From assembly GCF_024256385.1 (NCBI RefSeq), contig NZ_JAMLFW010000002.1:62001-126000 (forward strand): 64,000 nt of DNA. The letters run 5' to 3'. The translations under genes and the position numbers were made by a program. Shown one piece after another: positions 6,357 through 49,837 of this stretch. Origin of the DNA: Anatilimnocola floriformis. Its GTDB lineage: Bacteria; Planctomycetota; Planctomycetia; Pirellulales; Pirellulaceae. Under the pieces are notes generated by a model. The model was not told where the DNA came from. It was given only the letters and a program-made list of their open reading frames with translations, and did not search any database. The stretch's first letter is position 1, and each line of letters begins with the position of its first letter.

Positions 6357-9300
6357 TTAGGCCCAGTTGCCTTCGGCCATGGCAGCGTCAACACCGCCGA
6401 CGTATTCACCAGCCGACAAGGGCTGCGGAGCAGCCACGGCGAGCGGGGTGCCGACGCCGAAGAAGTCGCTGGCCTTGCCGTCGATGCGGAGGAGGTAGTT
6501 GCCGTTGGCGTCATAGCCCAGCACGCGGAAGCGAGCGAGGTTCGAAACGTTGGTCGCCGGAGTGGTGGTCGGGCGATTCGGATTGCGGGTGTCGTAGGGA
6601 TTCACAAAGATCCGAACGGTGTGGGCAACACCCAGGCCGTCGGTCGCCGTCAGCGTGGCGGCCTTCAGATCGGCATCGAGCACCACGCTCACGTCGGTCA
6701 TGCCGCCCCAGTTCTTCAGCGACCAGCTCCAGATGGAGTTGCCGGTGAGGGTGGTGGCCATCACGAAACCGTCCTTCGAGCTGCTGGCGTCGAGTTCGGC
6801 TTGCAGGCCCGAGCTGTTGACCAGTGCGGCGGCGTTAATGGCACCTTCACCGAAGTCGTTGCGCGACACGCCACCGGCCAGGCCGAGCAACGGCAGGTCG
6901 AGCAGAATGTCGTCATTGGCGAACAAGGTGGCGGCCAAGCCCAGGGTCTCCAGCCGATCGGACAAACCGACAGGCTGCGTTTCCTTGATGTGATAGTCAC
7001 CTGGTTCGACACCGGTGAATTGGTAGAAGCCGAGGTAGTTGGTTTCGACCGTGATCGGCGCGATCGCACCGTTGATGTCGCTGGCGCCCGTGAGAGTGAC
7101 TTGAACACCCGACAGCGGGAAATCGACGCCCACGTCGTAAGTGCCGTTGGCATTCACATCGCGATAAACATAGCCGTTGACATCAGTCGGGATGAAATCG
7201 ACCACGTCGATGCGGACCGTGACGACCGTCGACTTCGGATCGGCCACGCCGTTTGTCAGGCCGTTGTCGGTGATCGTATAGGTGAAGCTATCCTGGCCGA
7301 TGTAGCCGGCGAGCGGAGTGTAAGTCACCACGCCACCGACCAGCGTCACCGTGCCGCCCGCGGTGCTCGTTGCCGACACAGCGGTCAGCGTGAGCGTTTG
7401 CGTGCTTTCGTTGGCCGGACCAGCCGTATCGTTGGCCAGCAGCGAAGCTGCCGTGAACGTGCGGTCGCGATCCTTGATGACGGTGTAGCGAGTGGTTGGG
7501 CTCGGATCGGTGCCACCGACCGGAGCATCGTTGACTTCGGTCACGGTGATGGAAACCGTGGCCGTGTTCGAATCGAGAGCCAGCGGTGCGATGGTCGATT
7601 GATCGTTGACCTTGTAGGTGAACGAGTCTGGACCGTTGTAGTCGGCAGCCGGCGTGTAATCGATCTTGCGGGTCGTGGTGTTGAACACCGCGGTGCCGTG
7701 TTGCGGCGGCGTGACGATCGTCACCGACCAGTTGGCCTTGGCGGTATCGGGGTCGGTGTCGTTGGCCAGAGCATCGATCGCAACCGAGGTGTCTTCGGCG
7801 GTCGTGGCCGTGTCGTTATTCGCAACCGGCGGATCGTTCAACTCGGTGACCGTGACGGAGACCGTCGCGATGTTCGAGAGGTTGTTCGGGCTGTTGTGGT
7901 CGTCGAGCTGATAGGTGAACGTAGCCACACCAAAGAAGCCGGCCGCTGGCGTGAACTTGATCGTGCCGTTGGCATTGACCACCGCCGTGCCTTGCGTGGC
8001 GAGCGGAGCCGTGACAATGGCGACCGTCGTGCCAGCTTGCAGCTGACCAGCAGTGCCGGTCGGCGGATTCACATCCACATCGCGATCGTTGGCGGTGACC
8101 GCGATATCGATCACCTGGCCTTCGGAGATGGTCACCGCGTCATCAACAGCGTTGGCGGCATCGTTGACGGGGGTGATGGTAAACGAAGCCGTGCGAGTAA
8201 CCGACTTCGGATCGGCAGCACCGTTCGTCGTGCCGTTGTCGGTCACGGTGAACGAGAACGAAGCCGGGCCGTTGTAGTTGGCCGTCGGAGTGAAGACCAC
8301 ATCGGTGCCTTGGATCGCAACCGTGCCGCCGACCGGGGCCGAAACCGCGGAGATCGTCAGCGTTTGCGTGTTTTCGTTGGCTGGACCAGCCGTGGCGCCC
8401 GTCAGCAGCGTGGCGAACGGAACGGTTACCGTGGCCGTGTCTTCGGCGACATTGGCGAGCGTTTGATTGCTGGCCGTCGGAGCGTCGTTCACTTCGGTGA
8501 TCGTGAAGGTCACCGTGGCAGTGGCTGACTTTGGATCGGCAACGCCGTTGGTCGTGCCGTTGTCGGTGACGGTGTAAGTGAAGCTGGCCGGGCCGTTGTA
8601 ATCGGCGGTCGGCGTGAACTGCACGTTGCCACCGACGACCGCAACCGTGCCACCCACGGCAGAACCTGCGGCGGTGATCGTCAGGGTTTGAGCCGTTTCG
8701 AGCGGGCCGGCGCTGTCGTTGCCGGTCAAGGTTGCGGCGGTGATGGTCCGCACCCCCGAGTCTTCGGCAATGCTGCTGATCGCATCATCCACGGCAGTCG
8801 GAGCGTCGTTCACTTCGGTGACGGTCACATTGACCGTGCCGGTCGAGTCAGCACCCAGGCCCGAGTTGTCGTTCATCGTGTAAGTGAACGAGTCAGGGCC
8901 GAAGTAGTTCGGAGCTGGGACGTAGACCAGGTTGTCGCCCACGCGAGTGATCGTGCCGTTGTGGGCCGAGGTCGCTTGGAACGAGAGCAAGATGCCGGTC
9001 GCACCGACATTCACAATGTCGTTGGCCAGCACGGTAACAGAAGTGCCAGTCGAGCTGTCTTCGGCAACCGTGGCGTTGTCTTGGCGAGCACGAGGGCGAG
9101 TGGCCGGGTCGACGGTGATTGCGACCGACTTGGTATCGCTCTGAGCGCCACCTGTGCCGGTGTTGCCTTGATCGTTGACCGTGATCTGCAGCGATTCGGC
9201 TGTCGGAGCAAAGCCGATCGCGGCAGTGTAGGTGATGCCGTTGAGGGCCGTGTTGATATTGGCAATCGTGCCCGTGAGGGTCACGTTGTTGGTGTCATTC

Positions 9301-11552
9301 GTACCGATCGTCACACCAGGCGTCGTGTTGACATGAACGGTATTACCCGCGGTGACATGCAACGTGACGAGCACGGGGCTGCTGCCGGCATCGACGTCGG
9401 AGACTTGAATGAGCGTGCCGTTCGCCGAATTGAGGACGAGCGGATCGCCTTCGACCACGGTGGGAGCAATCGTCACGCCGCCGAGTTCCACCACCGGCTT
9501 ATCGTTGACGGGCGTCACAACCAGCGAGACGCTGCCAGTCCCTTGCAGGGCCGGAGCCGGCGTCTGGCCGTTGTCGTTAATGGTGATGTTGAGCGTAAAG
9601 TTGCCCGTAGCATTCGCGGCTGGCGTGTAGCTCAGGCCGTCGAGGGCCAGGTTCAAGTCGTCCTTGGTGCCATTGACGGTGATGGTGCTCGTACCGTTGC
9701 CAACCAAGCCCGTCAGACCATTCGTGCCGGCGAGCGTGAGGGTACCGTTGCCAGCACCGACCGACAGCGTGAGAGTCATCGGCAAGGTCGGATTGTCGAC
9801 GTCGTTGACCGAGATCCCGTTGCCGCCACCAGAAGTGAAGACGCGGGTGGTGTCTTCGGCAAAGGTCTGGGCGACGGTCGGCACGGTGACCGTCGGAGCG
9901 TCGTTGACCGGGGTGATGTTGATGGTGACGGTGGCCGTGTCGGTGTTACCACCCTGATCGACCACGGTGTAGGTAAAGGTGTCCGTGCCGTTCACATCGC
10001 CGCCGGGAGGCGTGTAGCGAATCTGCGTGCTGCCGGGAAGGATCTGGACGTTGCCCAGCGTACCGGTGGTGTTGACGCTTTGAATCGTCTTGGTCGTATT
10101 CGGAGTCGGCGAGTTATTGACGTCGTTAGCGAGCACGCTCAGGGTGAGCGGGGTCGTGCTCCCTTCGGTGATCGTGGCCGTGTCGTCGCCAGCGCTCAGC
10201 GGTTCGACGATCGTGATCGAGTCATTGACGACCGTGATCAAGTCGACTGTCACCGGAACATTGAAGCCGACCACGCCCGATTCCAGGCTGTCGTTGACAT
10301 TGGCAAACGACACTTGGATCGGCACGATGCCGGCATCGTTAGCCGTCATACGCAGGCGGACGATTTCGGTCGGCGCGGTGCCCGGGAAGGGATCTTGGAA
10401 GTTGCTGCCGCCGATGTCGTTAATACCGAATGTTTCGACGAAACCGACGCGTTGATCCTGGTAGAACGGCGGATCATCGTTGAGCGGGGTGCTGTCGGTG
10501 TCGTAGAAAGTGCGGACGCGGAAGGCATCGGCAACCGCAGCGAGAACGGTGGCCGGCGGGGTTTGTTGACCCGGCACAGCCCGGACGGCAGCGTTGGTTA
10601 CACCCTTGACGAGTTCGGTGACGACGATCGACGACGAACCACCCAGGCTGGCATCTTTGGTCGCGACGACGTCTGGCACGTCGAGATTCGACAGTTGATT
10701 GATGAACCGCAACTTGAAGTTCGTGGTCCCCGTGCCGCGAGAGACTTCGACGCGGCCTTCGCCCAGGGCGTTATCGAGAGCCGTTTGGATATTGGCGTTC
10801 GCAGTGTCGCGATTCGCGGCATAGGTGATGGGAGCCGTGGTCTTCAGCGTGCCGTGGTCGTTGACCGTCAGCGTGAACGTACCGTTGTTCGTGCCGCCAA
10901 CGATGTTGATGTTCTGCACATCGTTGACTTCGAAGTCGGTCTTGGTCGTGTCATAGAGCACGTCGAAGAACGAGGTGATGACACCGTCGGCCGATGTACG
11001 GGTCTTGCCCATGTAGCTCAGAACGCCAAGGTCCTCAGCCAGAATGCGGACGTCGTAGAAGCCACCCTTCGAGATCGAAGTGATGTCGTTGTTGGTGCCT
11101 GCGGCGACGATTTGCACCGTGATCTTGATCATCGGATCGCCAGCGCCGGCCGACGAATTGAGGCGATTGATAACAGTCACCGCGTCCATCGACGTCAGGC
11201 GGTTATCGTTGTTGACGTCGACGAATGGCAACGGTTCGTTGCTCGATTCACCGCCAGAAGCGCCAGTCACGCCACCGGTCGCCAGGCTGCGGGCGCCGCG
11301 CGTGTTCAGGTCGTTGATGATCGTGATGGCATCGAAAGCCGTAATGCGGCCGTCGTTGTTCACATCCAGCGGCTGCTGAATGTTCCAGTAGGGATAACGG
11401 ATCAAGCCGGCGCCACCAGCGGCATCCATCACCGAACGTTCTTCGAGGGCCTCCGCGAAGAGCGCACGGCGCTGAAAATCTTGCCGGCGAGTTTTTTGCC
11501 GGGAAGAACGAGCCGACGAAGGGACACGACGCTGACGACCAGAAATTGTCAT
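6357..11552 (-). CDS. Giant dockerin/cadherin-repeat surface protein
   Basis: This is a 1731-aa predicted extracellular protein. The N-terminus is Arg/Lys/Ser-rich and ends in LEERSVMDA (residues 36-44), the planctomycete-type export motif; there is no classic hydrophobic signal peptide. Two dockerin-like calcium loops follow, DVNNDGRITAFDAITIINDL (63-82) and DVNNDNRLTSMDAVTVINRL (112-131). The central two thirds contain at least seven tandem cadherin-like repeats, each ending in a VTEVNDAP-type motif and rich in Asp/Asn calcium ligands. Near the C-terminus DVNGYVYRDVNANGTYDVGV begins an SdrD B-like domain, ending with YQFTGVEPGDYHIKETQP. No enzymatic domain was recognised. A structural or adhesive role is inferred. 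The upstream gene is the 5531-aa dockerin protein on the same strand, 513 bp away. Confidence 0.85.
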   Translation of the reverse strand: MTISGRQRRVPSSARSSRQKTRRQDFQRRALFAEALEERSVMDAAGGAGLIRYPYWNIQQPLDVNNDGRITAFDAITIINDLNTRGARSLATGGVTGASGGESSNEPLPFVDVNNDNRLTSMDAVTVINRLNSSAGAGDPMIKITVQIVAAGTNNDITSISKGGFYDVRILAEDLGVLSYMGKTRTSADGVITSFFDVLYDTTKTDFEVNDVQNINIVGGTNNGTFTLTVNDHGTLKTTAPITYAANRDTANANIQTALDNALGEGRVEVSRGTGTTNFKLRFINQLSNLDVPDVVATKDASLGGSSSIVVTELVKGVTNAAVRAVPGQQTPPATVLAAVADAFRVRTFYDTDSTPLNDDPPFYQDQRVGFVETFGINDIGGSNFQDPFPGTAPTEIVRLRMTANDAGIVPIQVSFANVNDSLESGVVGFNVPVTVDLITVVNDSITIVEPLSAGDDTATITEGSTTPLTLSVLANDVNNSPTPNTTKTIQSVNTTGTLGNVQILPGSTQIRYTPPGGDVNGTDTFTYTVVDQGGNTDTATVTINITPVNDAPTVTVPTVAQTFAEDTTRVFTSGGGNGISVNDVDNPTLPMTLTLSVGAGNGTLTLAGTNGLTGLVGNGTSTITVNGTKDDLNLALDGLSYTPAANATGNFTLNITINDNGQTPAPALQGTGSVSLVVTPVNDKPVVELGGVTIAPTVVEGDPLVLNSANGTLIQVSDVDAGSSPVLVTLHVTAGNTVHVNTTPGVTIGTNDTNNVTLTGTIANINTALNGITYTAAIGFAPTAESLQITVNDQGNTGTGGAQSDTKSVAITVDPATRPRARQDNATVAEDSSTGTSVTVLANDIVNVGATGILLSFQATSAHNGTITRVGDNLVYVPAPNYFGPDSFTYTMNDNSGLGADSTGTVNVTVTEVNDAPTAVDDAISSIAEDSGVRTITAATLTGNDSAGPLETAQTLTITAAGSAVGGTVAVVGGNVQFTPTADYNGPASFTYTVTDNGTTNGVADPKSATATVTFTITEVNDAPTASNQTLANVAEDTATVTVPFATLLTGATAGPANENTQTLTISAVSAPVGGTVAIQGTDVVFTPTANYNGPASFSFTVTDNGTTNGAADPKSVTRTASFTITPVNDAANAVDDAVTISEGQVIDIAVTANDRDVDVNPPTGTAGQLQAGTTVAIVTAPLATQGTAVVNANGTIKFTPAAGFFGVATFTYQLDDHNSPNNLSNIATVSVTVTELNDPPVANNDTATTAEDTSVAIDALANDTDPDTAKANWSVTIVTPPQHGTAVFNTTTRKIDYTPAADYNGPDSFTYKVNDQSTIAPLALDSNTATVSITVTEVNDAPVGGTDPSPTTRYTVIKDRDRTFTAASLLANDTAGPANESTQTLTLTAVSATSTAGGTVTLVGGVVTYTPLAGYIGQDSFTYTITDNGLTNGVADPKSTVVTVRIDVVDFIPTDVNGYVYRDVNANGTYDVGVDFPLSGVQVTLTGASDINGAIAPITVETNYLGFYQFTGVEPGDYHIKETQPVGLSDRLETLGLAATLFANDDILLDLPLLGLAGGVSRNDFGEGAINAAALVNSSGLQAELDASSSKDGFVMATTLTGNSIWSWSLKNWGGMTDVSVVLDADLKAATLTATDGLGVAHTVRIFVNPYDTRNPNRPTTTPATNVSNLARFRVLGYDANGNYLLRIDGKASDFFGVGTPLAVAAPQPLSAGEYVGGVDAAMAEGNWA

Positions 11553-12065
11553 GAATTTTACCCGTAGCGAAACGAAGTCTCTGTTCCCGATGCAAATTAA
11601 GCAGTTTTGCGGGTGAGCTGGTGCTTCGCCTCAGAAGCACTCGCTCACTGCTCGAATTCGCTGACCCCTACCCCAAAAGCAAAAACAGCTGAACTGTAAG
11701 TGCGACAAGCAGTTGCAGAAAAAGCCAGCCGTAAACTACAGCTGGAAATCCCCCTAGGTGGTTGCAAACCAATCCGAGGGGTTTGAATTCCAAGCTAGTC
11801 AGGACATGCGAGCTTTGCAACAGATTTGCGCTGACCGGCCAACTTTTCTTACAAGGGCAAGTCGACGCATTCCGCAATCTTAGCGCGCACGGCATAACTG
11901 TCAAAATCGTGAACACCCCATTTAATGACGCAGGCCGGGTGGAAAAGTTCCCACCCGGCCTGAATGTCTTTCAAAACCGCCAGAGCCCGCCCCTGTGGGC
12001 CCCGGCCGGTTAAGATTTCGCCAACTTCAACCAGACCGCTGCCGGCCCGGCTGAAAATTGCTGAC
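11553..12065. other. Intergenic region between the two dockerin-protein genes
   Basis: This 513-bp gap lies between two minus-strand giant genes. Its left part should contain the promoter of the 1731-aa gene; no promoter boxes were identified with confidence, and the ATG at 11552 lacks a strong Shine-Dalgarno sequence. Its right part contains the hairpin at 11931-11962. No convincing ORF lies within it. Confidence 0.55.
11931..11962 (-). terminator. Hairpin, possible terminator of the 5531-aa gene
   Basis: A perfect 12-bp stem, CAGGCCGGGTGG at 11931-11942 with its complement at 11951-11962, encloses an 8-nt loop. It lies about 100 bp past the minus-strand stop at 12066. Only a weak AT tract (ATTAAAT) follows on the minus strand, so termination may need Rho or be partial. 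Confidence 0.5.
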
Positions 12066-15000
12066 TTACGACTGCTGAGTCTGCTCCTGGGCCAGTTCGT
12101 CCAGCAAATCTGCCCATTGGCCGTCGGTCAGAGGGCCAGTCGGGATCGCCATTTCTTCGAACGCTTCGAAGGTCGGCTGCGAGTGGCTGGCTGCTTCCCA
12201 GCCCATATTCCGTTCGGCCATGGCGTACATGGCGGCTTCCACGGCGACAGCGTTCATCATTTCGTCGACCGGCGACTCCGTAGCCACCGCTTGGGCAGCC
12301 ACTCGTGGCTGCGGGGCAGCGACCGGCTTGGTTTCGATGATGACGCTCGACGAAGCGTACATTTCGCCGGCCAGCCCGTTGAGAGCCAGTGGCAGATCGG
12401 CTTCGATCGATTCGCCAGCATGTTCCGGAGCGGCGCCACCACCCACACTCGTCGATTCCGGAGCACCCGCCCGCACCGGCAACAGCGGGTTGGCGTTGAG
12501 GTAGGTGATGATCGGAATCACGTCGAACGCCGACAACCGGCCGTTGCCATCGACATCGAGGTACGGCGGCGGGGCAGCCAACGGCGAAGGACCACCCACG
12601 ATTGGGAACAGGGCACCAGACGGATAGAGATTGAGGTAGTTGATGACGATGATCGCATCGAAGGCGTTCACCCGGCCGTCGTTGTTCACGTCCATGTTGC
12701 CGATGTCATCCAGGCCGTTACCGGGAACGTCAGCCCGATCGACCTTGATGACGATGCCGTTCTGGAACTGAGCACCAGTCAACGTGACCTGGTAATCTTC
12801 CACTTCGCCGTCGATGGCTGGACCCGTCGGCAGGTCGATGTCCTGCGAGCTCACGCGGAGGCGAGCGTAGGTCGGTCCGCGTTGGCCGATCGGAATGGTG
12901 AAGACAATCGTGTTGTTGCCGGCCTGCAGCACGTAATTGTGAATCACGCGTTCGGCAGTGCTCCAACCGGGAGTTCCATCGACATCGATCCACATCGACA
13001 GCTTGAGGCCGCTGGTCGGCGAGTTGACAGTCACCGACGAAGCGTCGGCGACGCCTGGCAGCAACTGACCCCAAGACACCACACCGTCATCCGAGTCCAG
13101 CGTTGCTGCTGCACTTGGCTTGCCGTCGAAGTCGGCCGAGGGCGTGGCACCGATCGACACACCAGGCACGATGAAGTGACTGGCGCCACCGTTGGCTTCG
13201 AGCACCGGATAGTTGGCCGGAGCATCACCGTAATCGACCGCCGTGCCGAGGAAGATGTCGTAGTAGTGATCGATGTTGTCGGCGGCATTGTTCGGGTTCG
13301 GCAGCGCGACGTCGTTGTTCGCCGTCAGCGGATTGCCGGCCTGATCGAGAATGCCATCGTTCAGGTAAACGCGATACGTACCGCGTGGCCAGATGTTGCC
13401 GACCGGCGTCAGCACGATTTGATTGCTCGTCGAATCGTAGCTGAAGAAGTAGTCGACACCGTCCACCAGCGGAGTTGGGACACCCACACCCGTCAGACGC
13501 GTGACGATGACCTGGTCGGTAGTGACCGTGAAATCGTCGATGTCCGAGCCGTCTGGTTCGCCGTTCGGATCGGTCCGATCGAACAGGGCGATCGTGAAGT
13601 TGCGAACGATCTGCGTACCGTCGGTCGAAACCACATTGGGCGACGAGTCGCGATCGATCCCCAGGCTGTCATTGTCCTGCGGATTGACCAGGCCCGAGCT
13701 CGGGCCGACCTTGTCGACGCGATCGATCGCACCACGATCCTTGAACGGATTCAGACCAAAGCCTTGCGGCGTTTGCACATTCGGATCATCGGCCCGCACC
13801 TGGCCGCGAGCATCGCGGTCGGGCGAGAGAATCGGCGAAGCACCGAGTCCCAGCGGAGCCTTGATGGTGACCATCAGCGGCCGATCGAGCAGCGAGTCGA
13901 CCGAGCTGTCGATGGCAGGCGACAGGGCGTCGAGGTAGAAGTTGCCGCCAGGAGCGTTGCGGAACAGCGGTTGGGTATTGGTGAGTTGGATCGGGAAGTC
14001 GCCCAAGCCCAGGTTGGCGGGATTGGTTTGCGTTCCGTTTCCTTGCGTCACCACACCACCGATGACCGTGTTTGGTCGCGAGGTTGCATCGACCGAGATG
14101 CCGGTGTTGAAGTTGGCGATGATATTGTTGAGCAGCGTCGGCCCAGCCTTTTCATCGACCAAGATACCGACATCGGCAACTGCGGACGGCGGCGGATTGA
14201 CCGTACCACCCACGCCGTACAGCGTGTTGTTGATGATGCGGCCGTACGGAACCGGGGCATCGGCGCCAGCGTCGCCGCTGAAGTGAATCGCACCCAGGCC
14301 GTTGCCGTAGATCACGTTGTTCATGATCACGACGCCGGGGAGCAGACCCGCGACGTTGCTTTGGGCCAGGTTGCGAACCCCACCTTGGTGAGCTGCGTTG
14401 GCGTCGTTCGGCGAACGCGAGCCCGCGTCGACATCGATGCCGAAGCCCACCGAGTTGTAGATTTCGTTGCCTTGCAGAATGATCTGCCCTTGGTCGCGAG
14501 GCAGGTTGCCGTCGCCAAGAGTCGAGTCGTAGCTGATCACGTCGATGGCGCTGTTCACGCCAGCCGAGTTGTTGCCAGTCGCATTCGGCGAGGTAACTTC
14601 CAGCGTGTACTTGCCGGTCGAACCAGCCACCGTGCCACCGCCCGTGACCGGGTTGTAGCGATTGTTGGTCGCACCGCTGACCGCGATGATGTAACGACCC
14701 GCCACCGGAGCAATGAAGTCGAGTGCCGAGTCGGTATCGTTCTTCTGGGTCGCGGTGTTGCCGATCACGATCGGGTTGCCCCGTTCGCCCGGAGCCGCAT
14801 AGGTCACGTTCGAGAACGTGCCGTTCGGCAGGAGCATCGGAATCGTCGGACCGTCGTTCTCGGCCGTGTAGGTCACGCCGCCGATCGACACCGTCTGCAG
14901 AACACCGGCTTGGTTGAAGATCCGCATGTACGAGTCGAGCGTCGAGCCGGCATCGGCTGCGTCGACATCGGCAATGATCCGCTGACCGGCTTCCAGGTCG

Positions 15001-24000: not shown

Positions 24001-27000
24001 CCCGTCACACCTTCGGCAATGATGCTCGTGCCGATGGTCGCATCGATGCGAGCGCCATCCGACTTCATCACGATCGAAGGATCGATCACCAGCGTGCCGT
24101 GCGGCCGAGCGCGGGCCGTCATCGGCGGCGAAATCGTCGCTTCGGTCAAGAAGACCGACGGATCGATCGAAGCGCCGTTCCGATCTTGGAAGCTGAAACC
24201 AAACGCGGTTTGCTGATCGACCAGATCGCGGAAGCCGACGTATTCAAAGCGACCGTAATCGATCGAGCGATAGATATTGATCTGCGTGTACCGCTTTGCA
24301 TCAATGGCTGGCAAGTTGGTCAGCGTGATCATGCGGTTGTTGCCGACGGCGACAAAACCCTTCGTATCGCCAGCCGTCACGGCCAGCGGAGCCGAAGCCG
24401 TTTCACCCGTCACACCCGAGTAGGTGAACCGGTAGTTCACAACTTGGCCGTTGGTGAAACCAGTCGTACCAGCTGGCGCCGGAACGCCGGCCTGCGCGGC
24501 CACAATGTCGACCGTTGACACCAGAACTTGCGGCTGCGCGAGAGGCGCGCCGGTGTCGACAAAGGTCGTGGCGCCGGCATCGACCAGGCCGACCAGATCG
24601 AACTGGCCACCAGCGATCGAGCGATAGACCCGCAGACCCATGTACTGAGCGTAGGCGACTGGCAGGTTGGCCAGCGTCACCGAGCCGTTCGGCCCGAGCG
24701 TCAAACCGCCCAGCGGCACTTCCACCATCGGCGTGTCGCGACCTTCGGTGTCGACGTAGGCGAGGCCATACACCACCCGTTGGCCGGCTGCGTATTGACC
24801 ACCACCAATCGCGGCAGTCACCGTCACGCCCGTGACGCGCGGCGAAATCGTATCGGTCGCCGAAGCAACCTTCAGCTTCAAAGCCGAGGTCGGCAGGGCG
24901 ATGTTCTTGTCGGTGTAAGTCGAGCTCGACGAAGCTGGAATCTGTTCCACGAGCGAGAAGTCGCCCGTACCACCAATGCGGCGATACAACCGGCGACCCA
25001 CAAAGCCTTGCGCCAGCAACGAAGCCGTCACGTTCGGCAGGTTCGTCAACCGGATGTAGGAATTGGCAGCCGTGATCGTGCCGGTCACCTTCACGGTGTT
25101 CGAGGCCAGGCCTTCGTTGCCGTTTTCGTCGACGTAGACAATCTTGTATTCGATCTGCGCTTGCGAACCAGCGGCAAAGCCACCGGTGCCCGCAACTGGC
25201 GCGGCCACGGTCAGCGTGGTGCCCGGAGCCGACAGCGAGCTGTGCACCAGCGCGCCACCCGGGTTGCTGTGCAGCACCAGGTTTTCTTGAACGACGTGGA
25301 CGATGTCCGTATCGTCGAAGCGACCGGCGACGGTCATCTCTTCGAGCGAGTTGGCGTTGAGCGCACCCGATTGCGTGCGAGCACGAATCGACAGTGCATT
25401 GACCGTGTTGTTGGTCAGCGTGTTGCCGTGGATTTCCGGGCCCACGCGGTTGTAATCGACGTTGAAGCTCGTGTTGAACGTGCTGCCAAACTGCGGGCTC
25501 GAGAAATTGCTCTCTTCGAAGCTATCGGGATTGGCCGACATCGCGGCATCGGCGTTGTAGGTCACCTTGTTGTTGATGATCGTCGGCCGCGAATCCGTCA
25601 TGTGAATCGGATTCACCGTGCGGGCCGTGGAATTGACCACCACCGCACCACCGCCGTAACGAATGTCGGCATTCGAGACGTAGTTGAGGAAGATGCCGCG
25701 GGTCTCGTAGTCGAACCGGCCGTCGGCCTTGTCGATGTCGTTGCGGAACGCGATGCCGCCCCAGTCACCTTCGTCGGCCCGTTCGGTGCCAGCATTTTCT
25801 GGCTTGCCGATTTGTGGTTCGGTGGCCAGGGTCGCGGTTGCAGCGCGGTTGTACGAAGTGAAGTAAACGTTTTGCCACGGCGTGCCGAGCACTTGCAGGG
25901 CGCCGCCGCTGCGATCGGCCGTCAAACCTTGATTTTCGCTACCGACGCTGATCTGAGCGCGGCGCAGTTGCAGCACGGCGCCAGCGTCAATCATCACCGT
26001 GCGATCTTTCGGCACGTCGAGCGACGAGCCATCGGCCAGCGGCTTGCCGAGCTGATCGAAACCGATCTGGTAAGCCAGGTTGTCGGTCAGGTTGGTGTCG
26101 GTCGTGTCCTTCGTGGCATTCAGATTGTTGCCGACGATGCGGATGATGTCGCCAGGCTTCGAAGCTTCGGTGGCGCGCTTGATCGAGAGGAACGGCTTGG
26201 CGAGCGAACCATCGGGCACGTAGGCAGCCGAATCCGGATCGCCGTCACGCGGCGAAACGTCGAGCGCCGTTGCATTGCCGCCGCCGGCGCGATCGACAAA
26301 GATCGTCCGGGCAGTGCGAGTCGTGCTTTGCAGGTCGGCTTGGTTGCTCACGCTCGCTGCGGCGCGGAACCAGAAATTGTTCACGCCGCCCGGCTTGCCA
26401 TCCGAGTCGCCATCGAAAGCGACGCCAGCGCCACCGGCCACACCCGTGTTGTCGGTCAGCGTTTGCTGAGCCACTTTGCGGAAGTCGAGCTTCAGCTGAT
26501 ACACGCCTTGGGTCGTACCGCCCATGCCCGAGTCGAAGACGTTCGGATCGTATTCGGAATTGCCGCTGGCGCTCACGCCGACAAAGTAAGTGCCGGCTGG
26601 CAGTTCCAATTCGATGAACGAATCTTTGCTGAAGTAATCGTCGTTGCGAGCGTACAGTTCGGGCTGCTGCGTCACCGGGTTCAAACGGTAGATCGACAAC
26701 GCCGAATCGAGTTGGCTGGAATTGGCCAGCCGTTCGGCGAAGACTTCCGCGGTGAAGACGCCCGCTTGATCGAGATCGAACTTATACAGATCGATGTCTT
26801 TGCTTTCCGGGCGATAGACATGCTGCATGTGCTCGATGTCGGCATCGCCGGGGAACGCCGGTTCTGCGGCTGGCAGACCGGTGTTCAGGGTCGGGTCGTT
26901 GCCTTGCACGGTCGGAGCCGGCAAGTCGTACGAGTGACCCAGGCCGAGCAATTCCTGAATCTCGTGCATCGCGGTGACGAACCAGGCATTGCCGTACAAG

Positions 27001-28661
27001 TCGCCGCCGTTCGAGGCCCAGTCTTCGCCCGAATCCATGATCGCGGCAGCCGTCTCGGCAATGCCGTCGTTGTTTAGGTCGACCGTTCCGGCCAGGCCCG
27101 TCAAACCGCCAGCGCCGGTTTGCACCGTCGACAGGATCGAACGCATATCGCCGGTGGCGATGATGAAGCCCTGCTTTTCGGTTTCGACAAAGTTCACGCC
27201 CGAGTACTGGCCGATCACTTCCAGCACTTCGCGAGCCCGCTGCTTCTGGCGCTCGGTGATGATGTTGAAGGTCGGCTGCGAGGGAACCGTGCCGGTCGTG
27301 GTGTCTGGAACGTAGCCCAGTTCCGAACGGAAGTTGTAGTAATACGTGGTGATGCCGTTCACCTTGTCGGCATCGGCGGCCGGCGGAGCGATCGGGTTCG
27401 CGGCATACTTGAAGCCCAGGTGGTCTTCGAGATCGTCATTGCCGGTGACGAAGGTCTGGGTGCGGTTCTGCGGAGCGAGCACAACCGTCGAACCCGGGTG
27501 ATTGCCACTCGAGACGTCGCGGTGGCCTGGATCGCCGTCGCCGCCTGGCCAGATCAAGTTGTAGTACTGCGGATCGATCGACTGACCGATGATCACGCTC
27601 GTGCCGCTGGTCAGCACGTTGGTGTTGGCAGTGCTGTTGGCCGATTGGTTGATGAAAGATTCCAGCGTTTGCGGGCTGGTCAAACCGCGAGCCAGCACGT
27701 TCTTCAGATTGGCAGCGCCATCGAACGTCGAACCTGGATCGGTCGACAGGTAATCGGTTGTTCCGCCGCCACCCGTCACGCCGTACATGTTCGGCCGGCG
27801 AATTTCATTCGTGCCGATGCGCAGACGGAAGGCCACGGCCGGATCGGCCACGCCAGCTACCACCGGAGCATAGGTTTCGATGTTCTGGGCAAAGGTCAGC
27901 GTGACCTTGTCCTTGATCGGATCGTAGGTGATCGACGAGGGGAGGATTTCGCTGCCGCTGGGCGCATCGTCGAGCGGATCGACCGTGCCGCGGGTGACCA
28001 GCAGGCGATAGTACTGCGGATCGATGGCCCGGACGGGGTCGAGATCATCGTTGTTGAAATACACGTCGACTTGATTCGAACGCTGCGTCAGTTGGCCCGT
28101 GGCGCTGCGGTCGATCGGTTGGGGCACGATCGACAGAATCTGCGGCGCGAGATTGAGGCGGAAGTCGACGTTGAACGACGTTCCCTTGTTGAACGGCAGG
28201 CCGTCGGTGTCGAGCAGCGTGCCGCCGACGAATTGAATGCGATACAAATCGTCCGGCAGCGGCGTCGCAAACCGCATCACGACTTGCGTTTGGTTTTCGC
28301 CGATGTCGAGATAGGCCGGCGTGTACGTGATGTCGTTGGCGTTAAAGAGGTTGTCTTTATTGGCGCCGGTCAGCGTGATGCCGCTGGCCAAGGTCGTGCG
28401 GTTGATGCCCGGCACGCCCGAGAAGGTAAATGTCAGTTCGCGCGGCGATTCATTCCGCACCGTCATCGGCGCGGTGCCCGTGCCAAAGGCCGCGCCGCCA
28501 TCGGCTTGGACAATGACAGGGTCGATGGCAAACATCTGCCGGTCTTCGAGCGATTCCAAGTGGTGCTTACGCGCGGCGCGCCGAAGCATCTCGCGATACT
28601 TGGGATCTTTTTTCAGCGTGCTCTTGAACAACGGTTGCTTCACCGAACGCCGGGTCGACAT
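12066..28661 (-). CDS. 5531-aa dockerin, PPC and beta-helix surface protein with degenerate zincin site
   Basis: The Arg/Lys-rich N-terminus ends in LEDRQMFA (38-45), the same export-like motif as its giant neighbours. Residues about 430-620 resemble a metzincin-like peptidase region, with HEIQELLGLGH at 566-576. The family pattern HExxHxxGxxH has Glu570 where the middle His should be. At least five pre-peptidase C-terminal-type domains follow (DIDLYKFDLDQAG, SDVDIYSFKAK, DVDWYRFSLD, YDFYSFQAGAGQ, DVDYFALDLEAGQ). Several stretches of right-handed beta-helix type lie between them (GGALQVLG, WGGIAFRND, IINNKVTYN). Near the C-terminus come a GEVEDYQVTL domain and two dockerin-like loops starting at Asp5324 and Asp5369. 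The ATG at 28661 is preceded by GAGGG at a good distance. The role is inferred as a large surface scaffold or adhesin; proteolysis is doubtful. Confidence 0.85.
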   Translation of the reverse strand: MSTRRSVKQPLFKSTLKKDPKYREMLRRAARKHHLESLEDRQMFAIDPVIVQADGGAAFGTGTAPMTVRNESPRELTFTFSGVPGINRTTLASGITLTGANKDNLFNANDITYTPAYLDIGENQTQVVMRFATPLPDDLYRIQFVGGTLLDTDGLPFNKGTSFNVDFRLNLAPQILSIVPQPIDRSATGQLTQRSNQVDVYFNNDDLDPVRAIDPQYYRLLVTRGTVDPLDDAPSGSEILPSSITYDPIKDKVTLTFAQNIETYAPVVAGVADPAVAFRLRIGTNEIRRPNMYGVTGGGGTTDYLSTDPGSTFDGAANLKNVLARGLTSPQTLESFINQSANSTANTNVLTSGTSVIIGQSIDPQYYNLIWPGGDGDPGHRDVSSGNHPGSTVVLAPQNRTQTFVTGNDDLEDHLGFKYAANPIAPPAADADKVNGITTYYYNFRSELGYVPDTTTGTVPSQPTFNIITERQKQRAREVLEVIGQYSGVNFVETEKQGFIIATGDMRSILSTVQTGAGGLTGLAGTVDLNNDGIAETAAAIMDSGEDWASNGGDLYGNAWFVTAMHEIQELLGLGHSYDLPAPTVQGNDPTLNTGLPAAEPAFPGDADIEHMQHVYRPESKDIDLYKFDLDQAGVFTAEVFAERLANSSQLDSALSIYRLNPVTQQPELYARNDDYFSKDSFIELELPAGTYFVGVSASGNSEYDPNVFDSGMGGTTQGVYQLKLDFRKVAQQTLTDNTGVAGGAGVAFDGDSDGKPGGVNNFWFRAAASVSNQADLQSTTRTARTIFVDRAGGGNATALDVSPRDGDPDSAAYVPDGSLAKPFLSIKRATEASKPGDIIRIVGNNLNATKDTTDTNLTDNLAYQIGFDQLGKPLADGSSLDVPKDRTVMIDAGAVLQLRRAQISVGSENQGLTADRSGGALQVLGTPWQNVYFTSYNRAATATLATEPQIGKPENAGTERADEGDWGGIAFRNDIDKADGRFDYETRGIFLNYVSNADIRYGGGAVVVNSTARTVNPIHMTDSRPTIINNKVTYNADAAMSANPDSFEESNFSSPQFGSTFNTSFNVDYNRVGPEIHGNTLTNNTVNALSIRARTQSGALNANSLEEMTVAGRFDDTDIVHVVQENLVLHSNPGGALVHSSLSAPGTTLTVAAPVAGTGGFAAGSQAQIEYKIVYVDENGNEGLASNTVKVTGTITAANSYIRLTNLPNVTASLLAQGFVGRRLYRRIGGTGDFSLVEQIPASSSSTYTDKNIALPTSALKLKVASATDTISPRVTGVTVTAAIGGGQYAAGQRVVYGLAYVDTEGRDTPMVEVPLGGLTLGPNGSVTLANLPVAYAQYMGLRVYRSIAGGQFDLVGLVDAGATTFVDTGAPLAQPQVLVSTVDIVAAQAGVPAPAGTTGFTNGQVVNYRFTYSGVTGETASAPLAVTAGDTKGFVAVGNNRMITLTNLPAIDAKRYTQINIYRSIDYGRFEYVGFRDLVDQQTAFGFSFQDRNGASIDPSVFLTEATISPPMTARARPHGTLVIDPSIVMKSDGARIDATIGTSIIAEGVTGRNIVMTSMYDTRYGAGGTFATSKSVGTVGTAGDWAGIYFAPDSKGSFNNVVFAYGGGENRIEGTFTGINVLEIQGGKVRVANSRFENNADGSGGAQSPADRSGRGTNDSAVIFVRGAQPVIVNNTAVNNKGSFISINVNALNSFGLVDWGRQTGLLAEIAPGTSLSRINYPISRMTDTTTGVTDVDNNGPLVRLNRLAGNTTNGMRVRGGVLTTESVWDDTDIAHVLFDSVLIPDFHTFGGLRLESSARESLVVKSASNTANNTVAAIIANGRPLETEDRIGGTLQVLGQPGFPVVLTAYSDDTISAGFRPDGQPQKDTNEGAAPGGGGGGGGTLPTGPEVNNGLLIDDDVPQNTNGHFAFQVGAAGSDGGITAATAQGTTGQFIAQDFIFDYYPVVYAGGAVIDLATTVTVAPALISPDVVKSEGQFTRQGGAAVHWVATSSFTNGVARLNTVYDFTTVDNSPLGDIRLISYLDEDIQGISDDLLYIAGSPGADDFRLMTLDNQERIGFAQGGVYNAGQPGLSNATYVGFMADQYNDLQSTIQAGTATQFAITPSGTNIDLVDLPLLADPVLGNIYGLNDITTALAWQVNPQATTSQISTFLEFLPQAPVTGGTAGEWEGIVIDKYANDRNVETVPEREPVTSNGSQNSRPSKAQFLGSLNSSDKGGDENLRLGFVVQGAISAPSDVDIYSFKAKSETEVWFDIDRTSQSLDSVLELVDEFGNVLARSDNSADEAVGGDSLIGEGALPMQKTAPYDGVDLYSTNVRDAGMRIKLPGPPGVESTYFVRVRSVPKNKVDLDTAVPQSVNESLVTSGVSYGAYELQVRLREEDEKGGTTVRYGRIANATTGIDVNGHPTHSPLGGEQREVEPNDLGTLLGAQDLGNLLETDRGTIAIAGNLSAYNDVDWYRFSLDYTAIDGTNGVQKEYPSLQSLVNTVFDLDYADGLGRANMQMFVYNSNFELILSSRDSNVADDRSNANTGSSLSDLSRGSTGYNDPYIGNVALPASTPFSSNNGTAPQTYYVAVTSIGTIPTVMDQFTSATSANALLRLEPIDSVHRIVEDHINEGLFEDFPRRNVKTELPSSAPDRGTSDLPTNQILFDNLIPQVPGQDSAIPWTLNDLSMYILRDPGTTIDQSVLQTFDPFTGAHMTDVGTFGYEVEDIDFSSANTLYGLTSDNDPDNIPLQDDDSGHLIQISTANGAATDLGDDGIFTYEFDPTGAPIRAHLGPGNIRYGYGIHYDAMSFFNPNGGATQRILGVGRRGEAFLPGNVNPGIDDKTNIVYQLSAANGSSLIDLNTPRTNGAGTDAIEMGVILTEQRFTAVEATTNTGLFYVPNVLDGTTFSVSDGQLTQPFEFDAGFEVSQTVNNATDQTVRDGYFFILDPDSDPTNKNEKIFQYDTGPVINFRRTLLSTQIPDGSTFTVNANGAAIAFEYDRDGVQNNPTAIPIDISSVGPALTADVVATLTAQAINSQTGAGFPAQAAVSPGSTRISLIPTGAGFVDATILSAPLIAQGVTVQGSTGNAPVLQAVSSPAAGPGSLEGKTFTLQISGATTTFEFDPQGNGVTAGNVAVAVGYNQTSDQVAQAMTNAILTQNGYAATRFGDRVLVNGAQITYVYTPTQPIVDLMDTIANGGLQGIPIVAEENFTNQQLTTVTTAAVNNQSQFTAGGEAATRTSRINFPPITIAGVKAATRRIDITGNPLWTQQLGSQPGVSPGAVAIPFLAEDDRFAIAQRVEAAIDGNMAGFNATATGAFVTLDRGQISLPTGSPFAVAGAGPGGNITGIVNVSNPPNGTSTFVAISDRGGLYLVTVNHNNNIAGPSNNTVNTQYIGTSENDLKGIQFQGLTRGPANVEGGRYANTWFAVADSGPFVLGPTVNFAHTENNGQIGLAIPTGITATGASTAILPAGTGVIGDGPFGGAGQSGDYDFYSFQAGAGQTITIDVEAAGAGTGTLADSYLTLYNAAGQILAADDNGGTGLDSSLTYTIGAAGTYYFAVRGGGFTFGGDLRDPFVASTGRGTTFTGTYGVTVTKEEFGASRVYAFDYNPGNAYNGLQPIFVDGQSNVPLTFRQGNTTTPIYDAKGIHFSELDRNLWHITPFDGGRATDPGHGVNANENDSRDATNGHSSFYFGGAATNGNYNFNNGADGSIISNEFSLEGYSAIDQPMLYFSYFADHDTVGTTDSFRVFVSGINNNNADVDGDGIADTNSGDWWPVALDDQTSVVNNVDNANTYVTTTESTFTTAGWRQVRIPLDRFAGWKDLRIKMDFSTAGDMATGVAYTKGEELRTVAGEYITDGQYISIDGQLYELDSGISATFASGNATPDGEALTVTAPGGASTTFEFDKDGVVTPGRIAVPIHDLMTAIETTQSMLSVLTANGFGGQISYMGDDAVLNFYGSENVTVTNAPSLGEVTFLTGQVGLVQPGAIEIPYQRAWTKIEVANSVNNVLEREFYDQKLIVGNGSQYADGQTFTITDVTDPLATQTFEIEMGQILNIPVNGANNLFPATQRVNDGDDFTLTYTVNGVPTTIKFEYDSDAILNDVTATRIPFNVNDTQSKIATVTTSVLNFAFPGLNAQVVTGARVQFDTDSSALTTMTYTPSITPAVAAKYSITGANGVTGTNVPVYVTASPLFATADVAAAVASAINSITTLGTVTATTAGTQPNRVTLVSANEYNLNVNPTALISFELTNVVANNNVKQYGDLIRLISSPTGPQHTLDYDPITDLPLRGPFGFEAALPGDNGGFRSNARGQNNAFEGVYVDDFIVGLAERGEMATGDVTRTQAFTTTQPALALPGQIRTGDYTLEIRRGVGYDFVSRENPGFTPDSNDRFTSQQTILARAGADIIDGQTFTLSDGNRQLTFEFNDIFEVNPDGDTVTPGNQEIPYHSGMKDFEVAEAIRDAINNVNVQQIIDVNAWMGDGVQPGLFTTTNRVNLNGAVTFVATGVPVTERNENIATAMEITAPGIPYDGLRFFANGMIGDSDDSVTSQLDAGRRDRDVDYFALDLEAGQRIIADVDAADAGSTLDSYMRIFNQAGVLQTVSIGGVTYTAENDGPTIPMLLPNGTFSNVTYAAPGERGNPIVIGNTATQKNDTDSALDFIAPVAGRYIIAVSGATNNRYNPVTGGGTVAGSTGKYTLEVTSPNATGNNSAGVNSAIDVISYDSTLGDGNLPRDQGQIILQGNEIYNSVGFGIDVDAGSRSPNDANAAHQGGVRNLAQSNVAGLLPGVVIMNNVIYGNGLGAIHFSGDAGADAPVPYGRIINNTLYGVGGTVNPPPSAVADVGILVDEKAGPTLLNNIIANFNTGISVDATSRPNTVIGGVVTQGNGTQTNPANLGLGDFPIQLTNTQPLFRNAPGGNFYLDALSPAIDSSVDSLLDRPLMVTIKAPLGLGASPILSPDRDARGQVRADDPNVQTPQGFGLNPFKDRGAIDRVDKVGPSSGLVNPQDNDSLGIDRDSSPNVVSTDGTQIVRNFTIALFDRTDPNGEPDGSDIDDFTVTTDQVIVTRLTGVGVPTPLVDGVDYFFSYDSTSNQIVLTPVGNIWPRGTYRVYLNDGILDQAGNPLTANNDVALPNPNNAADNIDHYYDIFLGTAVDYGDAPANYPVLEANGGASHFIVPGVSIGATPSADFDGKPSAAATLDSDDGVVSWGQLLPGVADASSVTVNSPTSGLKLSMWIDVDGTPGWSTAERVIHNYVLQAGNNTIVFTIPIGQRGPTYARLRVSSQDIDLPTGPAIDGEVEDYQVTLTGAQFQNGIVIKVDRADVPGNGLDDIGNMDVNNDGRVNAFDAIIVINYLNLYPSGALFPIVGGPSPLAAPPPYLDVDGNGRLSAFDVIPIITYLNANPLLPVRAGAPESTSVGGGAAPEHAGESIEADLPLALNGLAGEMYASSSVIIETKPVAAPQPRVAAQAVATESPVDEMMNAVAVEAAMYAMAERNMGWEAASHSQPTFEAFEEMAIPTGPLTDGQWADLLDELAQEQTQQS

Positions 28662-30566: not shown

Positions 30567-30678
30567 ATATGGCGACCCCCATTTTTAGCTATGCGATTTT
30601 TTCCTCGCTTGGCGGCCAGCCATCGGGCACAATGAGGCGGCGAAAGAATCCCAACCACCAAGCGACCGGAGGCAAGCA

Positions 30679-32145: not shown

Positions 32146-32289
32146 CGGCGAACTTCTTTCGAGCTCCGGTGTCTCTGCACGAGGGCTGATTCCGAGCCTC
32201 GCAATTGCTAGCTCCGCCGAATTGCTCTTCCCTGCCCGCAGCGCTTTTGTTAATTCAGCCGCGGACTTTTCATTCATCTCATCAGCTTG

Positions 32290-33711: not shown

Positions 33712-33713
33712 TG

Positions 33714-33797
33714 GGACGGACCATTGGTCCGTCCGGAACTGTGACTGCAACGAAATCGGCTCGGTACCTGCCGCCCAGACGGACCAATGGTCCGTCC
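33714..33797. repeat. Double palindrome between convergent genes
   Basis: Two nearly identical palindromes (GGACGGACCATTGGTCCGTC type) lie at 33714-33734 and 33778-33797. Each is self-complementary, and together they form a larger inverted repeat with a 43-nt spacer. It sits exactly in the gap between the convergent lipoprotein and 5339-aa genes. It may end transcription from both sides; the form also fits a dispersed REP/BIME-like element. Confidence 0.75.
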
Positions 33798-33817
33798 TAT
33801 GTTGCGCTCAACGCCTC

Positions 33818-45800: not shown

Positions 45801-48800
45801 GTGCCGCTCGTTGCAGCCGGGCTGCCGCTATCGGTGACGCTCACCGTGATCGTCGCAGAACCATTCGCATTCGGGGCTGGCGTATAAGTCAACACGCCGG
45901 TCGGCGAAATGGTGGGTTGGCCACTGGCCGTGAACAACGCCGAGTTCGTATTGCCGCTGAGGTTATAGGTAAACGTCTGGCCGTTTTCATCCGTGCCGCC
46001 ACCGGCATTCGCCGTGGCAAAACCAGTCACTGATTGCGCACCGGCATCTTCCAGCACGGTTTGCGTGCCGAGCAGTGTGAACGACGGCGTGTCGTTGACC
46101 GCAGTCACGTTGATGGTGAAGGTCTGCGTGCCGCTGGTTGCAGCCGGGCTGCCGCTATCCGTCACGCTCACCGTGATCGTCGCGGAACCATTCGCATTCG
46201 GGGCTGGCGTATAAGTCAACACGCCGGTCGGCGAAATCGTCGGTTGACCACCGGCCGTGAAGAGCGCCGAGTTCGTATTGCCGCTGAGGTTGTAGGTAAA
46301 CGTCTGGCCGTTTTCATCCGTGCCACCACCGGCATTGGCCGTGGCGAAACCAGTCACCGTCTGCGCACCGGCGTCTTCGAGCACGGTTTGCGTGCCAAGC
46401 AGCGTGAACGACGGCGTGTCGTTGACCGCAGTCAACGTGACGTTGAAGCTGTCGGTATCGGTACCACCCACACCATCGTTCGACTGCACCGTGATGGTGG
46501 TCAAGCCGATGCTGCTGTTGCGATTGAGCGCGGGGGTGAGCACCAGCGTTTGCAGCGCTTGATTGATCTGCGCCTGTGAGCCGAAGAACGTAACCGTCGA
46601 CGTACCGCTATTGCTCGGCGTGATACCGCTACCGTTGCCTGTAGCAGCGAGCGTGCCGAAGTTGACCGACACTGTAACGGTGATATTCGTCGCGCCCGCA
46701 TCGGGATCGCTGACCTGAATCAGGTTCGCGCCGCTCAGATTCAGCGGCGTGTCTTCGGTGCCGGTGGGCGAAACGGCCGGCACGCTGTTGACCGGATTTT
46801 GATTCGCCGCGGCCGTGATCGTGATGTTGAACGTCACCGGCGTCGAGGTATCGACACCACCATTAGCCGTGCCGCCGCTATCCTTCATGGTGAAAGTCAC
46901 CGCCACGGTGCCGCTCTGCCCCGTGGCCGGCGTGAACGACAGATTGCCGTTGGCGTCGATCACTGGCTGCGAGCTGAAGACCGCCGAGTCGGCGCTGGTC
47001 CGGGTGAACGTGACGGTTTGCGCCGATTCGTTCGTCGCGCCCTTGTTGATCGTGGCAAAGCCATTGATCGTGGTCGCCCCGGCCGTGTTCGGCGTCGATG
47101 GCACGGTTCCCACCGTGAAGCTCGGCTGATCGTTGACCGGCGTCAGCGTGATGCTGATCGTATCGGTATCGATGCCACCAGCGCCATCGTTCGAAGTGAC
47201 CGTGATCGTCGTTAGGCCGTCGCCGCTGTTACGATCGGTGGTCGGCGTGAAGACCAGCGTTGCCAGCGCGAGATTGATCTGCGTCGGCGCACCGGTAAAG
47301 GTAATCGTCGCCGAGCCGCTGCCACCGGGCGTGACCGTGCCAGTGCCGTTATTGGCAGTGAGGATGCCCATGCCGACCGCTGAAACGGTCGTTGTGATCG
47401 ACGCCGAATCGGAGTCGGCTACCGAGATTACATTGCCGCCGTTGAAGCTGACCGGCACATCTTCATTCGAAGTGATCGGTCCCGGCACGGTATTCACTGG
47501 GTTCGCATTCCCTGCCGGCGCAGTGAGCGTAATGGTGAACGACACAGGATCCGAGACATCGACCCCGCCGTTATCCGTTCCGCCACTGTCCTTCATCGTG
47601 AATGTGACGGTCGCAGTGCCAGTCTGGCCAGCCAAGGGAGTGTATTGCAGCACACCCGCCGCCGAGATCGTCGGCTGCACGCTGAAGAGGCTCGAGTTGG
47701 CGCTAGTCCGAGTGAACGACACAACCGTCTGCGCCGCTTCACTGCTGGGGCTCGTCGGCCCGAACACCGTGCTGTTCACAAAGCTGTTGACCGTCTGTGC
47801 CCCGGCGTTATTGACTACCGATTGGTTGCCGACAACCGTGAAGCTCGGCTTGTCGTTAACTGGCGCAAGATCGATTTGGAAAGTGTCGGTTGTGGTTGCG
47901 ATCGTGTCATTCGACTGGATCGTGACAGTGATCAAACCATTGCGATTGGCAGCAGGTGCGAACTCGAGCGTGGACAAGACCAAGTTGACTTGATCTTCCT
48001 GACCCGAAATGGTGACCGTGGCATCGTTGTTCGACAGCGTGACTACCGCAGTCGTCAGCGCAGATCCCTCGACAAATTTGCCGATCAGCGAACTAGCTAC
48101 CGAGAGTGTCGTAGTTACATAATTGTTGCCCGAGCTCGTATCGTTCACCGCGGGCGAAATGCCATCACTCAGCACAACGTTCGTATCTTCAACGCCCGCA
48201 ATCGGCCCTGAAGGCAGCACGTGAGTCGGCGCGACATTCGAACCTGCCGTTACCGTCACCACACCGTCGGTCAACGTATCATTCGTCGCGTTGGTCGGTT
48301 CTGGTCCGAGGGCGATGTTGCCTTCGTTGATTTGCGTGGTCCGCAGCGAACCATTGACGGTCGCCGACTTGACCATGTTGATCGGCGTCGTTCCGACTGG
48401 AGCAGTGGCCTTGATGATGGCGTTGATGTAGCCGATTTCCGCGTTGAAACCCGTCGCTACCGCCGCCTGACGTCCGAACGTGATGCTCAGCTTGCCGAGA
48501 TCGTCGGCGTTCCCCAGCGGCGTGTACAACGAGGGGCCGTTGGCGGAAACAGGTCCTGGAGCAGGTCCCGGCGGAGATGTCGGCAGGAGTTGCAAGTAGT
48601 TCGTGTCGTAGAGGACGACAATGTCGATGCCCTGAATATTCGCCACGCCGTTCGCCGTCAGCCGGATGGGAATCTGCACGAGATCGCCGGCCTTGCCCGA
48701 GATCGTCATCGGGACGCCGGTCGCAGTCTTACCGATCGACAAGACGGGCGCTGCATTGACGGTCACTGTAAAATTGTCGTCAGTAAACAAGCCGCCTTCT

Positions 48801-49837: not shown

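Follow-up and report, generated by a model that had tools for sequence, protein, structure and literature searches.

The window analysed here is a 64,000-nucleotide stretch, to which all window coordinates refer, at positions 62001-126000 of contig C2 in a planctomycete genome of 8.93 Mb (G000). It encodes three giant proteins, P0001, P0002 and P0003 (Table 1). Two of them, P0002 and P0001, belong to a dockerin gene cluster that is conserved in Pirellulaceae-like planctomycetes. P0001 probably carries a divergent cohesin, termed A1, directly beside its dockerin, as judged by sequence profiles, and dockerin and cohesin would in this way meet in one chain as in an adaptor scaffoldin. The overall reading, in which P0001 is the adaptor-scaffoldin-like part of the cluster and giant proteins form extracellular chains that lack cellulases, is tentative, and its chances are put somewhat below even. 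An earlier sequence-only reading of the window had grouped all three neighbouring genes as one cohesin-dockerin set; it missed the conserved pair as well as the probable cohesin beside the dockerin of P0001.

The pairing of P0002 and P0001 is seen in gene order. A search of 60 genomes, the own genome included, gives N-terminal matches to P0002 in 40 and matches to P0001 in 33, many of the latter to the dockerin only. Matches to the P0002 region among named planctomycete genomes include Blastopirellula marina and a Rhodopirellula metagenome-assembled genome. Of the 59 other genomes, at least 13 show a P0002-like match with a match to P0001 downstream of it, no more than ~20 kb away and sharing contig and strand (G001, G005, G007, G009, G012, G014, G016, G022, G024, G026, G029, G037 and G049), a lower bound counted among the matches listed, with many contigs being short. 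Twenty loci chosen for a P0001 match, together with the window, form a set of 21 cluster loci. In 16 of these, a gene with a C-terminal dockerin precedes the P0001-like gene; on broken contigs, this upstream gene was counted as P0002-like by its C-terminal dockerin and position only. Ten of the 16 loci contain a middle gene between the two, encoding 607 to 954 amino acids with a dockerin of its own, and neither G000 nor the same-genus genome G001 has this gene between the pair. Intergenic gaps in the cluster loci range from -92 to 513 bases. All 20 aligned P0001-like proteins show an LExR start followed by a dockerin pair.

The dockerins themselves were placed correctly by the sequence-only reading, at residues 63-131 of P0001 and 5324-5390 of P0002. 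PF00404 (cut-off, 22.9 bits) matches residues 63-132 of P0001, with an E value of 6.5e-12 in the whole protein, and residues ∼5323-5389 of P0002. The calcium-ligand positions are intact on direct reading in all four loops, DVNNDGRITAFD and DVNNDNRLTSMD in P0001 and DVNNDGRVNAFD and DVDGNGRLSAFD in P0002, as judged by the ligand pattern usual for dockerins. No PDB sequence matches the P0001 dockerin fragment at an E value of ≤0.1. The basic N-terminus ending in LE-[DE]-R-x, described earlier for all three proteins, is found as LEERS in P0001, LEDRQ in P0002 and LEDRS in P0003. The family PF07595 ("Planctomycete extracellular") remains below its cut-off in P0002 (E value, 0.029) and P0003 (E value, 0.26). 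LExR is common in the genome: among 27 open reading frames (ORFs) with cohesins or dockerins that were read, 19 show LExR near the start, 3 show a near variant, 3 are truncated at their 5' end, and 2 have none. P0001 and P0002 are probably exported.

A1 is a domain of ∼155 residues located behind the dockerin of P0001-like proteins, with the consensus ...VxDLR...GVFxAYLDVLYD...IDExGA...PLGPxExLLF.... No Pfam family is listed for the first member, and comparison with NCBIfam gives only single weak names. The AlphaFold2 model of the dockerin and A1 of a same-order relative (L137) shows a mean predicted local distance difference test score (pLDDT) of 91.9 and a predicted template modelling score of 0.71. 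A Foldseek search of the PDB with this model gives 103 matches at an E value of ≤0.001, the best at 2.5e-8; cohesin-containing entries fill 46 of the top 50 rows, and the other 4 are adhesin or hypothetical proteins. A1 of this relative is accordingly modelled, by prediction, as a cohesin-type beta sandwich. In profile-profile comparison, A1 (56 rows) matches 26 Pfam cohesins of the own genome with a probability of 69.7 and an E value of 4.2e-5, compared to a probability of 0.3 for the control, 24 Big_9-type repeats of P0003. An earlier hhalign comparison of A1 (22 rows) with cohesins gave a probability of 35 and an E value of 3.9e-4. The A1 alignment uses 16 of 22 stretches, leaving out 6 more divergent, partial or insert-bearing ones; the 56-row comparison omits 3 of these 16 rows, and the cohesin set comprises 26 of 29 matches after repeats were dropped.

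In P0001 itself, the A1 profile, searched in 20 proteins, matches residues 142-239 (E value, 8.3e-6) and then residues 350-449 (E value, 4.7e-5). A profile of dockerin and A1 together, searched against the whole genome, finds window positions 10935-11390 with an E value of 2.8e-29, mostly contributed by the dockerin, and the second half of A1 as a separate match (Table 1).

The distribution of the modules was compared in a family sample of 119 genomes, the own genome included, and a phylum sample of 246 genomes. Dockerins are found in 102 family genomes, A1 in 98 and Pfam cohesins in 31. All 98 genomes with A1 contain a dockerin, and 17 of the 21 genomes without A1, among which G383 is placed by inference, contain none (Fisher test, 3.7e-17). 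Among the 31 family genomes with a Pfam cohesin, 29 have a dockerin (Fisher test, 0.23); in the absence of an association, the cohesin type of P0003 finds no support as a family-wide partner of dockerins. The best A1 match from each of 30 genomes shows a dockerin in the visible frame in 23 proteins, adjacent to A1 in 22, and two layouts recur, an N-terminal dockerin-A1 and an A1-A1-dockerin arrangement.

A number of results weigh against these assignments. Only 4 of 16 A1 members match the Pfam cohesin PF00963 at an E value of ≤1, the best at 0.0072, and the score stays below the profile cut-off; no PDB sequence matches A1 at an E value of ≤10. The two A1 matches in P0001 cover overlapping parts of the profile (positions 3-94 and 53-157), and an insert of ∼143 residues (about residues 207-349) splits the domain, at a position where several relatives also carry inserts. 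The model of P0001's own dockerin and A1 region reaches a mean pLDDT of only 70.8 and finds no PDB match at an E value of ≤0.001, with cohesins in 0 of the 50 best rows. A1 in P0001 is therefore a claim of homology by profile rather than a result on its fold. A clear A1 behind the dockerin is found in only 12 of 20 P0001-like proteins, in one of them as the first half only; in L126, A1 lies further downstream, and the others are near or below the threshold. Four dockerin-bearing family genomes (G315, G319, G332 and G381) are without A1. Since A1 and dockerin often share a protein, part of their association follows from the layout itself, and descent confounds it further. In the phylum, A1 is nearly confined to the family (6 of 246 genomes, 3 of these from the family), and dockerins there follow the Pfam cohesins, occurring in 29 of 34 genomes with such a cohesin compared to 56 of 212 others (Fisher test, 6.6e-11).

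According to the adaptor reading, P0001 would combine a plug, the dockerin, with a socket, A1, directly behind it, followed by a stalk of immunoglobulin (Ig)- and cadherin-like repeats. Two dockerins, the C-terminal one of P0002 and, in clusters with a third protein, the one carried there, would dock with calcium into an A1-type cohesin, either that of P0001 or that of the A1-A1-dockerin proteins of relatives. The dockerin of P0001 would dock into another cohesin, and the giants would thereby be chained extracellularly. The natural client would be P0002, whose gene lies beside that of P0001 and which has a matrixin-like stretch and, at its C-terminus, a dockerin. That the giants leave the cell, sit on its surface and need calcium is inferred, as is each step of binding; the plug with its probable socket suggests that dockerin proteins of this kind could snap together extracellularly.

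Among 17 aligned sequences of the matrixin-like stretch (loci L037-L060 and the window), 7 show the canonical zinc motif HExxHxxGxxH and 10 lack it, the latter including the window P0002 and its same-genus relative. On this alignment, the protease-type site of a conserved giant protein is lost repeatedly. Because the motif is degenerate in the window P0002, a binding or structural part is likelier than an active peptidase.

The adaptor reading can be extended to the family, although the extension is held to be rather doubtful. Here, Pirellulaceae-like planctomycetes would own a second, Pfam-invisible cohesin type, A1, usually fused to a dockerin, and head-to-tail polymers of such proteins would hang client giants like P0002, giving a family-wide non-cellulosomal extracellular assembly. 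A genome of the family can hold dozens of dockerins, and no Pfam cohesin match is seen in 73 of the 102 dockerin-bearing genomes. If the extension is true, the hidden cohesin fused to dockerins would be the missing partner, and many orphan giants could be tested as one assembly system.

The adjacency of the two modules also fits an arrangement in cis, in which the dockerin folds onto the cohesin adjoining it in its own chain and forms a lock set by calcium, shaping or sealing the N-terminus and linking no proteins. This possibility, considered unlikely overall, draws on the 22 of 30 sampled A1 proteins with an adjoining dockerin and deserves weight because the adjacency recurs among the Pfam cohesins of the own genome, and thus in two domain types: 11 of these 29 cohesins are followed by a degenerate dockerin-like doublet when read by eye, and 6 of 29 by regular expression. 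Pfam calls a dockerin in 1 of the 11 doublets read by eye. Against a lock of this kind, an A1 match lies beside the dockerin in 0 of 10 middle genes and 0 of 16 upstream genes with a C-terminal dockerin (P0002 included), within the parts seen.

The dockerin doublets may alternatively act as calcium-binding spacers that stabilize giant exported proteins and bind no cohesin. The excess of dockerins over Pfam cohesins (102 versus 31 of 119 genomes), with often 10 to 49 dockerins per genome (at most 49 being scored), is in line with such a role. It is given a low probability, and the presence of A1 in 98 of the 102 dockerin genomes counts against it.

P0003 has to be treated apart from the pair. 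A cohesin had been proposed at about residues 365-530, and PF00963 (cut-off, 24.1 bits) indeed matches residues 378-497 in the numbering of the 5,339-amino-acid protein. The fragment score in Table 1 was obtained with 201 amino acids, compared to 29.2 bits with a fragment of 534 amino acids, and the cohesin is absent from the Pfam listing when the first 2,700 residues are scanned together. The sequence also matches the solved Clostridium thermocellum cohesin 1aoh with an E value of 8.7e-4. The profile scores rule out chance matches as an explanation of the dockerin and cohesin modules. The reading frame of P0003 starts with ATG and extends to position 49975 with an upstream GTG.

In the set proposed earlier, the dockerins of P0001 and P0002 would both be received by the cohesin of P0003, with the products of the three neighbouring genes joined in one scaffold. 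A true Pfam cohesin with dockerins within ∼37 kb on the same strand agrees with this, but the cohesin lies ∼36 kb off, and an opposite-strand DUF1501 gene separates P0003 from the pair. In G001, a 9.0-Mb contig carries the P0002-P0001 pair at 1.04-1.06 Mb, far from the best P0003 match at 8.97 Mb. N-terminal matches to P0003 occur in 8 of the 60 genomes, compared to 40 for P0002. Clustering of all three genes in relatives is likewise not seen, as a Pfam cohesin lies at the cluster in 0 of the 11 clustered relatives searched (11 of 13 being covered by the family cohesin search). Four of these 11 have Pfam cohesins elsewhere (G001, G007, G014 and G029), that of G014 on another contig. The own genome shows 29 cohesin matches in 16 ORFs, 28 of them besides that of P0003, and 12 dockerin matches in 12 ORFs, one ORF having both. 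Random placement of 19 cohesin genes (the count of cohesin ORFs being 16) puts one of them within 38 kb of a chosen point in 15% of trials, and the nearness of P0003 is therefore weak evidence. The 73 dockerin-bearing family genomes without a Pfam cohesin match speak against the set as well. Without conservation of the arrangement, the three-gene set is dropped as very unlikely. P0003 is a separate cohesin-bearing giant and may be one of several further receptors.

Other parts of the sequence-only reading are supported: the modules are genuine, the giants have a planctomycete-type start, and no cellulase or carbohydrate-binding module (CBM) family of Pfam scores above its cut-off in P0001, P0002 or P0003, the rest of the genome not being scanned for them. 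The claimed lack of carbohydrate-binding domains is qualified by a sub-threshold match to PF00754 (F5/8 type C; E value, 0.0028) at about residues 140-234 of P0003 (same numbering), between the LEDR start and the cohesin. PF00754 includes carbohydrate-binding members, and the match marks a possible domain of carbohydrate-binding type.

Table 1. Window positions of the three giant proteins and their domains, with supporting matches
Feature	Window positions	Strand	Content or support
P0001, 1731 aa (amino acids)	6357..11552	-	Basic N-terminus with LEER, dockerin, putative divergent cohesin A1 (by profile), Big_9/cadherin repeats, SdrD_B-like domain
P0002, 5531 aa	12066..28661	-	LEDR N-terminus, matrixin-like stretch, PPC domains, GEVED, C-terminal dockerin
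P0003, 5339 aa	33818..49837	-	LEDR N-terminus, one Pfam cohesin, long Big_9/cadherin-like array, C-terminal RTX repeats
Dockerin pair, P0001 residues 63-132	11157..11366	-	PF00404, 53.5 bits (fragment), 53.3 bits (genome)
A1 first half, P0001 residues ∼142-206	10935..11129	-	A1 profile; dockerin+A1 profile
Insertion splitting A1, P0001 residues ∼207-349	10506..10934	-	Gap between two profile matches
A1 second half, P0001 residues 350-449	10206..10505	-	Dockerin+A1 profile positions 134-237, E value 2.9e-5; A1 profile
SdrD_B-like domain, P0001	6960..7175	-	PF17210, 41.5 bits
Dockerin pair, P0002 residues 5323-5389	12494..12694	-	PF00404, 52.4 bits (fragment), 51.7 bits (genome)
GEVED domain directly before P0002 dockerin	12783..13001	-	PF20009, 33.8 bits
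Matrixin-like stretch, P0002, degenerate zinc motif HEIQELLGLGH	26925..27059	-	PF00413, E value 0.0027, below cut-off
Pfam cohesin, P0003	48347..48703	-	PF00963, 33.1 bits (genome), 34.1 bits (fragment)

The DNA of P0003 contains three tandem repeat arrays at window positions 35597-46434, with periods of 309 to 327 bases and 68, 82 and 89% matches. The period corresponds to about one Ig-like domain, which points to amplification. Antisense to P0002, a 3,727-amino-acid open frame occupies positions 11964-23147 of the plus strand and is probably a by-product of G+C-rich codon use. An ORF at positions 50668-51753 shows short repeats of 21 and 42 bases at 50995-51533, the 21-base unit coding for AAPTCGA in frame; no Pfam family matches this ORF at an E value of ≤0.01.

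With 27 to 29 cohesin matches, the own genome is an outlier in its family sample. Many of its cohesins are arranged as a cohesin, a degenerate dockerin-like doublet and a second cohesin in one protein (L017-L026). Comparison of the C2 regions 424000-441000, 804000-822000 and 984000-1003900 shows that the giant genes starting at C2:438361 and C2:807096 have nearly identical N-termini and that three similar-looking cohesins, at C2:431-432 kb and C2:992-993 kb, score equally. These similarities suggest duplication or recombination. Two further proteins (C2:954545-957889 and 999518-1002499) combine an LExR start with C-terminal cohesins, one of them with a dockerin in between; by eye, the stretch after LExR (RFVTYNVHA...) resembles an endonuclease/exonuclease domain.

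Cohesin and dockerin modules outside cellulosomes are reportedly established, to judge from the title of a 2009 paper. Adaptor scaffoldins are established in cellulosomes, where a protein with both dockerin and cohesin holds clients and hangs on another scaffold (PMC4959524). P0001 would resemble these proteins in joining the two modules, whereas it shows no cellulase or CBM above the cut-off, a single divergent cohesin and binding that is putative. The TMEM132 family combines a cohesin domain with tandem Ig-like domains in adhesion-type proteins (PMC6030884); in the present case, dockerin and cohesin would lie in the same chain. The accessible portion of PMC3796261 contains nothing on planctomycete dockerins. 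No description of an A1-type cohesin was recognized in the literature, in a search covering mainly titles and abstract openings, with most subscription literature outside it.

The closest counterpart is the non-cellulosomal "planctosome," proposed in 2019 for freshwater Nemodlikiaceae planctomycetes (PMC6461901). The planctosome likewise features non-cellulosomal cohesins and dockerins of planctomycetes and a proposed adaptor with a dockerin, an HYR repeat and a cohesin in one chain. Its clients are peptidases, to which the sub-threshold, degenerate matrixin-like stretch of P0002 may be compared. Contrary to the present case, the planctosome cohesins are recognized as such, a lamin-tail anchor with P-domains and a cohesin is described, and signal peptides are reported; here, the putative adaptor cohesin is invisible to Pfam, the N-termini are of the LExR type, the matrixin-like stretch has a degenerate motif, and the organism belongs to a Pirellulaceae-like lineage. 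The adaptor idea is already known; the present case adds a putative cohesin type that Pfam does not see, another lineage and a conserved gene pair.
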